Positions 29,314-55,710 of a stretch of 64,000 nucleotides of DNA are shown in pieces. This DNA is from Gemmatimonas phototrophica (GTDB lineage: Bacteria > Gemmatimonadota > Gemmatimonadetes > Gemmatimonadales > Gemmatimonadaceae). Below the pieces are notes generated by a model that was not told the origin of the DNA, did not search any database, and worked only from the letters and a program-made list of their open reading frames with translations. The stretch is from positions 3,782,001 through 3,846,000 of the forward strand of contig NZ_CP011454.1 of assembly GCF_000695095.2 (NCBI RefSeq). The letters run 5' to 3'. How positions within the stretch are numbered: position 1 is the stretch's first letter; the number at the start of each line of letters is the position of its first letter. The position numbers and the translations under genes are program-made.

Positions 29314-29331
29314 ACTGCAGTGAACTGCTGG

Positions 29332-29434
29332 AAAAGCGTCATGGGTTATGGGTTATCGGGTCACCGAGTAACTGCGGAACTGCGGTTACCGCGTTAACCC
29401 GGTGACCCGATAACCCATAACCCATGACGCTTTT
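29332..29434. terminator. Very long bidirectional terminator: perfect 34 bp inverted repeat
   Basis: The arm 29332-29365 is the exact reverse complement of 29401-29434 (34 of 34 bases). The arms begin AAAAGCGTC and end GACGCTTTT, so either strand ends in a short U-run, and each arm carries a tandem ATGGGTT repeat. The 35-base loop contains a smaller hairpin (GTAAC ... GTTAC). It lies between the convergent DUF3429 and DUF4184 genes; the TAA of the latter (29433-29435) overlaps the arm. The stem is far longer than is usual for intrinsic terminators, so a mobile palindromic repeat is an alternative. Confidence 0.75.
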
Positions 29435-30218
29435 ACACTGCCTTTCTCTGCCTTAGCCACAGGCTGATCAGCAACGCTCCCAGTGCGGCGACGTCTATGG
29501 CCCCAAACGCCAGCGCCGCCGCGGTGGCTTTGGGTGCGTGGGCCGGCTGGCTGGCCCCCAGGAGGACGCCGACGCCGGCACATACGGTGAGCACCCGCAG
29601 AACCTGGATGCCGTGGGTCCGGGGGCGTTTGGGGAGCTGCTGGGGCGCCACGTTTTTCCAGCGCCACAGGAGCCGTTGAGCGGCAATGCGGCGCCACATC
29701 AGCGCACAGGCGATCCCGAAGCCGATGGTGAGCCAGAGTTGCAGGGCGTCGTGCAACGGTGCGGTGCTGCCTAGGTGGGGAACCGGGGTGCGCAGAAAGG
29801 GAAACCACGGCACCAGCCACCCGGAATGATTGCCGTGGGTAATGCCATCGAGGACCACGTGCGACATTCCCCCGATCCAGGCAGACACGGCCACGCGCCC
29901 CCAATCAGCCAGGCCTCGTGCGGGCTCAAGGGCGGCGAGATCATGGAGCCGCAACCATGAGACGTCTCGGACGTAGGGGAGCAGCACCGGGAACACGATC
30001 CGGGTCAGGAGCCGATGCAGCACCAGAACCAACGGTACCGTAAACCAGAGCTGGGCCGATACCGTGTGACTGAAGATCCAGTCGTCGGCCAGTCGGAAGA
30101 TGAACTCCAGATCTGGCGCCATACTCCCCAGGCAAAGCGCCAGCCCGGAGAAATGGCGTGGCCACTTCATCTTGAGCGGCAAGACGAGGGTCTGGTGCGC
30201 AAGCAGGGTAGCGGGCAC
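29433..30218 (-). CDS. DUF4184 family membrane protein
   Basis: The 261-residue protein has about seven hydrophobic segments. The DUF4184 motifs are present: MPATLLAHQTLVLPLKMKWP at the start, LCLGSMAPDLEFIFRL at about residues 29-44 and an internal SHVVLDGITHGNHSG at about 128-142, whose His/Asp residues resemble those of membrane-bound hydrolases such as YdjM and the phospholipase-C-like zinc fold. The start is GTG 30218. No partner gene is adjacent: PilT-like ATPase is divergent. Family confidence is high; activity is unknown. Confidence 0.82.
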   Translation of the reverse strand: MPATLLAHQTLVLPLKMKWPRHFSGLALCLGSMAPDLEFIFRLADDWIFSHTVSAQLWFTVPLVLVLHRLLTRIVFPVLLPYVRDVSWLRLHDLAALEPARGLADWGRVAVSAWIGGMSHVVLDGITHGNHSGWLVPWFPFLRTPVPHLGSTAPLHDALQLWLTIGFGIACALMWRRIAAQRLLWRWKNVAPQQLPKRPRTHGIQVLRVLTVCAGVGVLLGASQPAHAPKATAAALAFGAIDVAALGALLISLWLRQRKAV

Positions 30219-52794: not shown

Positions 52795-53390
52795 GGCTCG
52801 GTGGGTGAGTCGGTCGGCGGGAGAATCGGCGAAACCAGCGTATCGGACACGGGCGCGACCTCTGGGACAATGATCGGCGCGCGATACACCGAGATCGAGG
52901 TGTCTTCGAGGACGTGAATCTTGGCGCCCTTCGGGAGCACGTGCGTCTTGAGATGCTCGGCCACGAGCACGCGCGACCACGGGGCACGCTGCCACCGCTC
53001 GATGAGCCGATCAAGCATCCGTGATTCATACGGCGGATCAACGAACGCGATGTCGTAGCGGTCGGGAGTCAGCATGTCGGCAAAGGGCAGCGCGTCTTTC
53101 TTGTAGACGCGGCACTTCGTCGATACACGAAGCGCGGCAATGTTGGCCTTGAGCGCGTGCAGACTGGAGGGACGGAACTCCACGAAGTCCACGTACTTGG
53201 CGCCGCGCGAAACGGCTTCGAGCCCCAGCGCCCCTGTCCCGGCAAAGAGATCGGCCACACGGGCCCCCTCGAGATCTGCCGCCAGCAACTTCATCATCTG
53301 TACTCGCACCGCCTCGGCGGTGGGACGCACTCGAAAATCCTTGGGTGACGTGAGGTTCCGGCCACCAAACTTCCCACCGACAATTCGCAC
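52791..53390 (-). CDS. rsmD: 16S rRNA m2G966 methyltransferase RsmD
   Basis: The 199-residue protein begins at GTG 53390 with RIVGGKFGGRNLTSPKDFRV, the RsmD N-terminus. SAM-binding GTGALGLEAVSRGA is at about 51-64 and the catalytic motif VDPPYESRMLDRL at about 124-136, with the DPPY tetrapeptide of this family. It methylates the exocyclic amine of G966 in 16S rRNA. A C-terminal extension of about 25 residues, rich in Pro and Thr (PEVAPVSDTLVSPILPPTDSP), is not part of the usual fold. It starts 3 bp after the hemoglobin stop and overlaps the acylase start. coaD, often the next gene in other genomes, is absent; coaW is two genes further on. Confidence 0.9.
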   Translation of the reverse strand: MRIVGGKFGGRNLTSPKDFRVRPTAEAVRVQMMKLLAADLEGARVADLFAGTGALGLEAVSRGAKYVDFVEFRPSSLHALKANIAALRVSTKCRVYKKDALPFADMLTPDRYDIAFVDPPYESRMLDRLIERWQRAPWSRVLVAEHLKTHVLPKGAKIHVLEDTSISVYRAPIIVPEVAPVSDTLVSPILPPTDSPTEP

Positions 53391-53393
53391 CGC

Positions 53394-53774
53394 TTACTCC
53401 GGCTGGTTGCGCATGTGATCCGCCAGCTGTTGCAGCTTCTGGCGGAGAAAGGTTTTGAGCTCGTCGGGCGCGTCGTGCCCGGCCAGCGCATGATCCATGC
53501 ACCACAACCATTCGTCGCGCTCCTGCGCGCCGATGGCAAACGGAAAGTGGCGCATGCGCAGCCGCGGGTGCCCGTATTTCTCCACGTAATGCTGGGGGCC
53601 ACCGGTCCACCCGCACAAAAAGAGAAACAGCTTCTCGCGCGACACCTTGAGGTTCGCCGCATGCAGGGCGCGAATGGTCGCGGCCTCAGGAGCGGTATCC
53701 ATGAGGTCGTAGAAGCGGTCCACCAGCGCGCGAATGCCGGACTCACCGCCAAGCTGTTCGAAGTGCGTGTTCAC
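53394..53774 (-). CDS. Group II truncated hemoglobin
   Basis: The 126-residue protein starts at GTG 53774. It has the globin 2-on-2 fold features of group II: FEQLGGESGIRALVDRFYDL (helices A-B), LFLFLCGWTGGPQHYVEKYG with Trp and Tyr near the haem, and the proximal His in GHPRLRMRHFPFAIGAQERD (His near residue 77), followed by EWLWCMDHALAGHD. These match trHbO-like proteins, which bind O2, NO or sulfide. It is the first gene of the operon and has TAGCCT six bases before its GTG and no Shine-Dalgarno. A TTGCCC lies 18 bases upstream of the TAGCCT. The unusual inverted repeat is just upstream. Confidence 0.88.
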   Translation of the reverse strand: MNTHFEQLGGESGIRALVDRFYDLMDTAPEAATIRALHAANLKVSREKLFLFLCGWTGGPQHYVEKYGHPRLRMRHFPFAIGAQERDEWLWCMDHALAGHDAPDELKTFLRQKLQQLADHMRNQPE

Positions 53775-53780
53775 TCGGGA

Positions 53781-53786
53781 AGGCTA
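53781..53786 (-). promoter_or_regulatory. Candidate leaderless promoter of the hemoglobin operon
   Basis: TAGCCT on the minus strand ends six bases (TCCCGA) before the GTG at 53774. A TTGCCC -35-like hexamer stands 18 bases further upstream, making it the best-formed promoter of its class in this window. Confidence 0.55.
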
Positions 53787-53872
53787 GCGAACCCGAGGAG
53801 CCAAGGGCAAGCGGTATGGCCGAGCTCGCTTCGGGAGAGAGCTCAGAGACGAGAGGCCTGAGGCCGAGGTGG

Positions 53873-54132
53873 GAGCGTTGCGAGTTGAGCGGTGCGATGG
53901 ATATCGACGGTGAGAGGGTCGAGATCACCACGACAATGAGAGGTGCGGGTGCTGGCGTCCGCATGGGAAGTGCCCCCCACGGACGCCGCTGGAACAGCGG
54001 TCGTCCCCGCTGTTACCCCAAGCGCGTGGGGGGCACATACGTGCAGAGGCAACTACTCGCACCTCTCATCGTCGTGGTGATCTCGACCCTCTCACCGTCG
54101 ATATCCATCGCACGTCTGAACTCGCAACGCTC
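53873..54132. repeat. Nested inverted-repeat element, 260 bp, in the 413 bp gene-free gap
   Basis: The region 53775-54187 has no gene. The arms 53873-53950 and 54055-54132 are inverted copies of 78 bp with five mismatches (73 of 78), including a 43 bp perfect core. Inside, the 12 bp arms GTGCCCCCCACG (53970-53981) and CGTGGGGGGCAC (54025-54036) pair perfectly, and CCGCTG-GAA-CAGCGG forms a third stem at 53986-54000. Outside, weaker similarity reaches about 53852 and 54153. This looks like a MITE or a structured RNA. It lies between the 3' end of a lipoprotein gene and the hemoglobin promoter. No transposase or target-site duplication was found. Confidence 0.8.
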
Positions 54133-54160
54133 CGACCTCTAAGTCCGGCCTCGGCGGTCT

Positions 54161-54181
54161 CAGATCTCAGATCTCAGATCT
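54161..54181 (+). repeat. Three tandem CAGATCT heptamers
   Basis: CAGATCT occurs three times in a row (54161-54167, 54168-54174, 54175-54181), just outside the right arm of the inverted repeat and before the stop of the glycine-rich lipoprotein gene. Each unit contains an AGATCT palindrome. Confidence 0.8.
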
Positions 54182-54187
54182 CGTCGC

Positions 54188-54913
54188 TCAATAGCGCGGG
54201 AAGGTGGGCCTGACGCCTCCGCCGTTGGCGATGACGCCGCCAATGGCTCCGCCCAGCACGCCGCCGCGGGCGCCGCCCATGACTTCGCCCACCGTGATGA
54301 CGCCACCGCGCCGCCCATTGCGGCCAGCCCGACGGCGATCATGCTCCTCGCAGTTGTCAACGCCGGCACTGCCACCGCGGATGATCACGCCAATCAGCGT
54401 GCCCCAGCCCCCGCCGCGTCGTCCGGTGCCAGCGCCCGCTTCGCCCTGTCCTTCGCCATCGCCGTGTCCCGCGGATGGCCCACGGGCGGTGCTGATCCCC
54501 ACCTCGGGGTCGGGCGATGGGGCGTGAATCGCCGGCTCCGGAATGGGCGCCGGGGTGGGCTCCAACACGTCCGACACCGCAACGGCAGGAGCGGCCGCCT
54601 CCTCGAGCTGCGGCGTAGCAGCAACCTCCTGCACCTCCGCCTGCGGGGTAGGCCGAGGCATACGGCGGGGCGTAGGCACCGCGTCGCGGCGTCCACGGTT
54701 GGTACCGCTGGGCGCATTGGTGGGGCCGCCCTCCAGCGCCGAGACCACCGCCGTCTGCGGTGGACGCGCCTGGACCGCCAGCTGCAGATCGCGCTCCAGA
54801 TCGGCCGTCATGACACCCTGATCGCGCTCGCCGCCACAGGCCAGCATTCCCAGCGCGGTCACGACGCCAACGGCAACGACTGCGGTTCGCCTGCTCCTGT
54901 TGTTCTGACGCAC
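54188..54913 (-). CDS. Glycine-zipper-like lipoprotein
   Basis: The GTG at 54913 is preceded by GGAGCGGAGGA, a good Shine-Dalgarno, and gives 241 residues. A lipobox LGMLAC (Cys at about 23) follows the signal. Residues of about 30-150 are low-complexity and Pro/Ala/Glu-rich. The C-terminal third is glycine-rich, with VGEVMGGARGGVLGGAIGGV (about 207-226) resembling a glycine-zipper membrane motif, and ends VRPTFPRY. It may be an outer-membrane lipoprotein with a membrane-inserting C-terminus. The frame is open to 55102 but the GTG has the only Shine-Dalgarno. Function is unknown. Confidence 0.72.
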   Translation of the reverse strand: MRQNNRSRRTAVVAVGVVTALGMLACGGERDQGVMTADLERDLQLAVQARPPQTAVVSALEGGPTNAPSGTNRGRRDAVPTPRRMPRPTPQAEVQEVAATPQLEEAAAPAVAVSDVLEPTPAPIPEPAIHAPSPDPEVGISTARGPSAGHGDGEGQGEAGAGTGRRGGGWGTLIGVIIRGGSAGVDNCEEHDRRRAGRNGRRGGVITVGEVMGGARGGVLGGAIGGVIANGGGVRPTFPRY

Positions 54914-55119
54914 TGGTCCTCCGCTCCCTGCGGTGCACCCCTCCGGCCCTCGCCGGAGTGCCACCGACACCCCGTGGCAGGGCAATTGCCGGGCCAACTT
55001 CGTACGTTGCATCACCAAGAGGGGGAACGCTGGCACTAATGGCGACCGCTGTCCCCTTCCGGGGACGACACTCCCGTGAATGTGTCCACCACGTGAGATC
55101 ACTGCCGGGGCTTTCCTTC

Positions 55120-55710
55120 ATGCGTTTCCATACACCGACGCGGCGCAGTGGCGCCTGGCTCGTCCTCGCGCTGGGCACCTCCGCCTGTCAGAATGCGGAG
55201 CAAATTGCTCCCGCCGAACGCCGGGCGATCGCGGACTCGCTGAGCGCCCTGGTGGTCCAGGCCTACGATTTCTCCCGCCCCGACGCGCCGGAGCGACTGC
55301 TCGCCCTGTATCCCGACACAGGACGGGTCATTTCGGCGGTCGCGGGACATGTGACCACCACCCGGGATACCCTGGCCAGCGAAATCCGCGGCTTCTGGCA
55401 ACGCGTGGGGCAGAACATGCGGACCCCCACTTTCGTGCTTGGCTCCACCTACGTGGACCTCATCACACGGAACGCCGCCGTGGTGACGCTGACGTACAGC
55501 ATTCCGCATCGCACCCCTCGTGACACCCCGCATGTGGTCAGCGGCGCCTGGACGATGCTCTGGCGACGCCAGGGCGGGCAGTGGCGGATTGTGCAGGAGC
55601 ATCTGTCCGACACCCCCGAAAGCTCGGCGCCCGGGCCGGCGGTGACCGACCCCATTGCACCACCGGGCGATTCGGCGGCGGGAGCTGGCAGTACGCACCA
55701 GCATCGTTGA
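55120..55710 (+). CDS. NTF2-like lipoprotein
   Basis: From ATG 55120 the protein has 196 residues with lipobox LGTSAC (Cys at about 23). The body is an NTF2/DUF4440-like cone: RAIADSLSALVVQAYDFSRP (helix), ALYPDTGRVISAVAGHVTTT, EIRGFWQRVGQN, TFVLGSTYVDLITRNAAVV and TMLWRRQGGQWRIVQEHLSD. The C-terminal tail is Pro/Gly/Ala-rich. The conserved WR-x(n)-W-x-IVxEH pattern at the last strands is typical of SnoaL-like DUF4440. No catalytic residue is evident. It is divergent from the glycine-rich lipoprotein. It is a candidate small-ligand or calcium-binding-type periplasmic protein. Confidence 0.7.
   Translation: MRFHTPTRRSGAWLVLALGTSACQNAEQIAPAERRAIADSLSALVVQAYDFSRPDAPERLLALYPDTGRVISAVAGHVTTTRDTLASEIRGFWQRVGQNMRTPTFVLGSTYVDLITRNAAVVTLTYSIPHRTPRDTPHVVSGAWTMLWRRQGGQWRIVQEHLSDTPESSAPGPAVTDPIAPPGDSAAGAGSTHQHR

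Follow-up and report, generated by a model that had tools for sequence, protein, structure and literature searches.

REP and BIME elements are found downstream of coding regions, where the neighboring genes converge or run in the same direction, and their families are partly species specific; genomes that carry REPs may also be without a RAYT gene (PMC3733652). According to its abstract, a survey of 40 genomes described repeated, mostly intergenic families whose members take a stem-loop fold and could function as RNA (Cozzuto et al. 2008, PMC2267715). In Gemmatimonas phototrophica, Tomasch et al. (2024) counted repeats with repseek, found 86 outside and 4 inside the terminus-side region of high strand bias, and reported that repeats generally avoid the terminus region (PMC11237797). 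The terms "hairpin," "palindrom" and "intergenic" do not occur in the main text of that study, which therefore does not describe structure, gene-end placement or clade-specific families, and no prior description of gene-end hairpins in Gemmatimonas was found in the open-licence literature searched.

The hairpin described here belongs to family A, whose long intergenic hairpins are dispersed over about 52 gene ends of the G. phototrophica chromosome. Like REP/BIME, family A consists of dispersed intergenic palindromes with inverse pairs of units and a mosaic build, and it shares their placement between convergent or co-directional genes (51/52 loci). It differs from them in having an arm of ~115 nt compared with the 20- to 40-bp palindromic unit of REP and in residing in a genome without a RAYT/Y1 transposase gene, and gene-end hairpins differ further in that, at some of these gene ends, relatives have hairpins of unrelated sequence. 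Because unit size and the RAYT gene are two usual features of REPs, we treat the A hairpins as a variant of repeated intergenic hairpins and not as a demonstrated REP. The ends of the A unit are not sharply defined, and a GTAG/CGTC tag could not be placed. A search for PF01797 (Y1) gave no match in the G. phototrophica genome and single copies in 8 of 30 genomes of the genus, which rules out a REP system driven by a RAYT of the host genome itself. In one of the sister genomes discussed below (G009:C31, locus L185), the single-copy Y1 transposase gene is flanked by inverted repeats of the GGGGTCAGAGTC type, resembling the TIR-flanked Y1 genes of PMC3733652; this repeat is at most weakly like the family-R hairpin described below (E 0.07).

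The stem-loop families of Cozzuto et al. are alike in being repeated, mostly intergenic and possibly active as RNA; turnover at orthologous sites is absent from the abstract of that survey. Like the repeats of Tomasch et al. (PMC11237797), the A hairpins keep away from one side of the chromosome, and the two are probably in part the same sequences. Intrinsic terminators likewise place a hairpin near the stop codon and can be used on both strands between convergent genes, but A hairpins lack a U-tract, have a stem several times longer and form a multicopy sequence family.

A 330-bp hairpin upstream of a globin gene

The window analyzed is a 64-kb stretch of the G. phototrophica chromosome (4.72 Mb in one contig; the organism is phototrophic and carries two PF00124 genes). 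Gene calls confirmed that a 413-bp gene-free gap, between a stop at 54188 and a globin start at 53774, surrounds the hairpin. The architecture given in the original prediction was reproduced: 78-nt arms (53866-53943 and 54062-54139) that match in inverse orientation at 73/78 positions, a 43-nt perfect core, an inner 12-bp stem, a third small stem and, outside the right arm, three CAGATCT units. The symmetry nevertheless reaches beyond that description, with 127-nt arms that are 82% complementary and a full extent of 330 bp. Folded as RNA, the hairpin has a predicted energy of -263 kcal/mol compared with -143 +/- 6 for shuffled sequences, far beyond chance. The features are as follows.

53839..54168, no strand: whole family-A hairpin (self inverted-repeat alignment, E about 1e-70; fold z -19.5)
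53852..53962, + strand: left family-A arm, the purine-rich 5' arm (arm model R1, 91.5 bits)
54043..54157, - strand: right family-A arm, inverse copy of the left-arm unit (arm model R1, 97.1 bits)
53892..53934, + strand: left copy of the 43-nt perfect core, holding the most conserved segment of family A, GCGATGGATATCGA (longest perfect inverted repeat; arm column conservation)
54071..54113, - strand: right copy of the 43-nt perfect core (longest perfect inverted repeat)
53970..53981, + strand: left side of the inner 12-bp perfect stem (inverted-repeat check)
54025..54036, + strand: right side of the inner 12-bp perfect stem (inverted-repeat check)
53981..54006, no strand: small third stem, CCGCTG GAA CAGCGG with flanks (module recurs in loops of other copies)
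54161..54181, no strand: three CAGATCT heptads, starting at 54161, 54168 and 54175 (stop-codon side of the hairpin)
54188..54913, - strand: upstream co-directional protein gene, no Pfam family (stop ~20 bp from the hairpin)
53394..53774, - strand: downstream gene for a bacterial-like globin, PF01152 (hairpin 65 bp before the gene)

The CAGATCT heptad also flanks hairpins in sister species. A 108-aa open reading frame runs through the arms and, as already proposed for the peptide-like frame noticed there, is a by-product of their symmetry. An Rfam search with the hairpin gave only subthreshold long-hairpin miRNA models and chance-level matches; with no score above the gathering threshold, membership in a known RNA family is ruled out.

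Family A and family B in the G. phototrophica chromosome

A DNA search of the chromosome with the window element gave ~40 places. An arm model of 116 positions then found 87 arm matches, which manual grouping assigned to about 52 loci. These further copies, which the original prediction had proposed to look for, rule out its concern that the element is a one-off palindrome. The family-A unit is the arm, present as two inverted copies in hairpins of about 210 to 400 bp; it carries a near-invariant 14-nt core (GCGATGGATATCGA) and near-invariant GA dinucleotides at a spacing of seven or so bases. The copies are mosaic, with alternative mid-modules, and a second module, family B, is marked by GTTATGG heptads and forms hairpins of its own as well as A/B hybrids. 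One family-B hairpin also lies in the window.

29317..29451, no strand: family-B hairpin with GTTATGG heptads, second of the hairpin class in the window (fills a convergent gap)

The convergent genes on either side of it encode DUF3429 and DUF4184 domains.

Arms of different A copies are only about 70% identical, which speaks against the recent origin first suggested. The exact core pattern was absent from all 84,980 other species genomes searched, and in other Gemmatimonas the arm model found only weak matches (best E 1e-4, in G013 and G004). No A locus lies at 1.85 to 3.17 Mb (p 5e-5), in line with the published scarcity of repeats on the terminus side (PMC11237797). At G000:C1:1231111-1231980 (L103), two inverse A arms, separated by ~650 bp, flank a small gene; the matching gaps in sister genomes hold an R hairpin (see below) and a solo R arm.

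A hairpins are placed behind stop codons

The 52 A loci comprise 20 convergent, 31 co-directional and 1 divergent gap. Divergent gaps thus account for 1/52 loci compared with 9/20 in the baseline, the 20 gaps of 100 bp or more in the 64-kb window (p 2e-5). In 26 of the 31 co-directional gaps, the upstream stop is nearer to the hairpin than the downstream start (p 2e-4; median distances, 24 and 91 bp, with genes called by a simple codon-based caller), and many convergent gaps are occupied to within 0 to 20 bp of both stop codons. The arms also have a polarity, the 5' half being purine rich in 38/38 hairpins of this genome and in 82/82 R hairpins; in the hairpins of other genomes this is a rule with exceptions. 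No U-tract follows the stem, and no terminator-like site was found in 53300-55200. Because canonical U-tract terminators are rare at the gene ends of this genome, both where the element is present (7/71) and where it is absent (6/77), replacement of such terminators by A hairpins is not distinguishable from these counts.

Hairpin families of the same build and the maintenance of pairing

Weak matches to family A were all that relatives showed of its sequence; families of the same build are nevertheless present, each found by searching with one hairpin. Family R, a different hairpin whose loci were reached through CAGATCT heptads, occurs in three sister genomes, the MAGs UKL202c, RE-15aug16-119 and C8_MAG_00034. 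Family C (query from G041) is present in high number in some ten other genomes and weakly matched in a few more, and family D (query from G004) also matches in G001 and G023. Of the 82 R hairpins, none was assigned to a divergent gap; six at the edges of their loci could not be oriented. A profile of R arms matches the window copy with an E value of 2e-5, partly through the heptads, and an A-arm profile scored against R loci scarcely better than the reversed control; these comparisons of sequence are at most suggestive of common ancestry of the A and R arms. The 14-nt A core is not common to the other hairpin families of the genus. In G004, a hairpin at L264:9940-10127 has a core like that of family A (GTGATGGAAATAGACATTGAGAGGGTC) and is possibly a distant relative. 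Gene-end hairpins form a class present in several Gemmatimonas clades, of which family A is a "dialect" specific to one clade.

R hairpins form 23 orthologous groups, each with its gap in common between two or all three of the sister species, and the copies are about 75 to 99% alike, mostly near 90%. When orthologous stems were compared, the three species pairs, which are not independent, showed 13, 15 and 13 double changes that keep Watson-Crick pairing, far above the 0 to 3 in slid-register controls (partners moved by 1 to 4 positions). In one pair, 76 of 101 single changes at mismatches restored pairing. These changes show that pairing of the R stem is kept, by selection or by templated palindrome repair.

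Some gene ends carry hairpins across species

Among the orthologs of A gaps in five further genomes, 16/45 held a long hairpin of unrelated sequence, counted by hand with the criteria used for random gaps; of the random gaps in these genomes, co-directional or convergent, 13/265 held one (p 5e-8; p 4e-5 without the best site). These p values are too small, because sites were pooled across species and the species share history. The excess held when convergent sites were taken by themselves (9/24 versus 4/41, p 0.01) and was not significant at co-directional sites without the best one (2/16 versus 9/224, p 0.16). At that best site (767629 in G. phototrophica), where the G. phototrophica genome has an A arm, a long hairpin is present in 5/5 further genomes and in both sister genomes with data. 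Nine A loci have an R hairpin in the same gap of a sister genome; at other A sites relatives have an empty gap of 0 to 30 bp. It is conceivable, though doubtful, that certain Gemmatimonas gene ends stay occupied by a long hairpin over evolutionary time even as each clade substitutes a sequence of its own, so that position and structure are conserved and sequence is not; this would be a fast-turning 3'-end system unlike U-tract terminators.

The hemoglobin promoter had been proposed as the target of a silencer or switch. At the orthologous globin gap, a long hairpin was found in only one of five relatives (present in G041; not in G006, G016, G004 or G021), and ~51 copies adjoin other genes, which argues against both a silencer and a globin-specific switch. 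The proposal of a cis-acting RNA that extends the upstream transcript at its 3' end fares better, since the copies hug stop codons.

Proposed function and alternative explanations

We favor, at a probability of about one-half, the reading that these are vertically kept, REP/BIME-like 3'-end hairpins that act on transcripts and are renewed by clade-specific bursts. The hairpin would form the 3' end of transcripts from the gene before it, in this case the minus-strand gene ending at 54188, and its very stable stem may stop or release the polymerase, shield the mRNA from 3' exonucleases, or both. Because its sequence is equivalent on either strand, one hairpin between convergent genes could serve the transcripts of both. 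Within a lineage the hairpins would spread in bursts, and the copies would afterwards be passed on at fixed sites, their stems remaining paired. The reading draws directly on copy number, placement behind stops, arm polarity, site sharing across species and the pair-keeping changes of family R. A transcript-end structure is the simplest reading of elements that are strand symmetric, lie behind stops, are nearly absent from divergent (promoter) gaps and are kept paired; termination or 3' protection by the A hairpins is what we infer from these sequence features. Two of the observations are open to another interpretation: avoidance of divergent gaps is also expected from selection against harmful insertions, and the R changes could stem from templated repair rather than selection. 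The missing U-tract also counts against the reading, as does the finding that, in family A itself, paired arms clearly exceed arms of different copies in likeness only in their outer part.

The serious rival, which we consider a real possibility though we would bet against it, is a selfish, nonautonomous mobile hairpin, MITE- or REP-like, that inserts by preference directly behind genes or survives only there, has no host function and colonized each clade with its own family. It accounts for dispersal and promoter avoidance as well as the transcript-end reading does; the families are multicopy, dispersed and clade specific, some orthologous gaps are empty, and the same placement and species-specific families are reported for REPs (PMC3733652). 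Unrelated families at some of the same sites count against it, unless gene ends differ strongly as targets, in which case they are covered too. Also against it are the lack of a Y1/RAYT gene in the genome, the maintained pairing of R stems and the finding of no empty R site among both-flank comparisons of the three sister species, a sample chosen for having R. Nor could the marks of a MITE be made out. The original suggestion of a MITE was right about a dispersed element, but the outer ends of A copies vary in length and sequence, the empty orthologous sites are too diverged for a target duplication to be read, and a search covering the Y1 family found no partner transposase.

The mosaic modules, the A/B hybrid hairpins and the GAGATCT and GTTATGG heptad arrays would also fit an origin and upkeep by replication slippage and template switching. 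Inverse arms would then be copied from arrays of heptads that follow genes, the palindromes would be corrected again and again, and gene conversion would shuffle modules among sites. A relative at L030 has a heptad array and no long hairpin there, and outer arm parts are more alike within a copy than between copies (0.59 versus 0.51, p 2e-4), the core slightly so (0.84 versus 0.81). The mid and inner arm parts show no such excess, however, and orthologous R copies, at ~75 to 99% likeness, stay put, which argues against rapid homogenization between sites; we judge this origin unlikely. Least probable, and by our estimate very improbable, is a DNA-level site for a chromosomal protein acting in the nucleoid, segregation or DNA uptake, with the hairpin a mere consequence of paired sites. 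The near-invariant core and the void at 1.85 to 3.17 Mb would suit such a site, and DNA uptake sequences have been reported to be linked with terminators in other bacteria (PMC1852404). The void, however, is shared with G. phototrophica repeats in general (PMC11237797), and the core is not shared by the genus's other hairpin families. DNA uptake sequences have copy numbers far above that of family A, which also weighs against a site of this kind.

If the transcript-end reading is true, many Gemmatimonas transcripts end in very long hairpins that are strand symmetric and lack a U-tract, and the hairpin sequences used for this differ from clade to clade, at some of the same genes. The long-standing question whether REP-like repeats are selfish litter or parts of gene ends could then be tested on orthologous gene ends that have or lack a hairpin. 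In the draft sister genomes G009 and G018, several contigs begin or end inside R hairpins (e.g., G009:C309 and G009:C291); hairpin counts in these drafts are therefore probably lower bounds, and gene-end hairpins may explain contig breaks in Gemmatimonas draft genomes.
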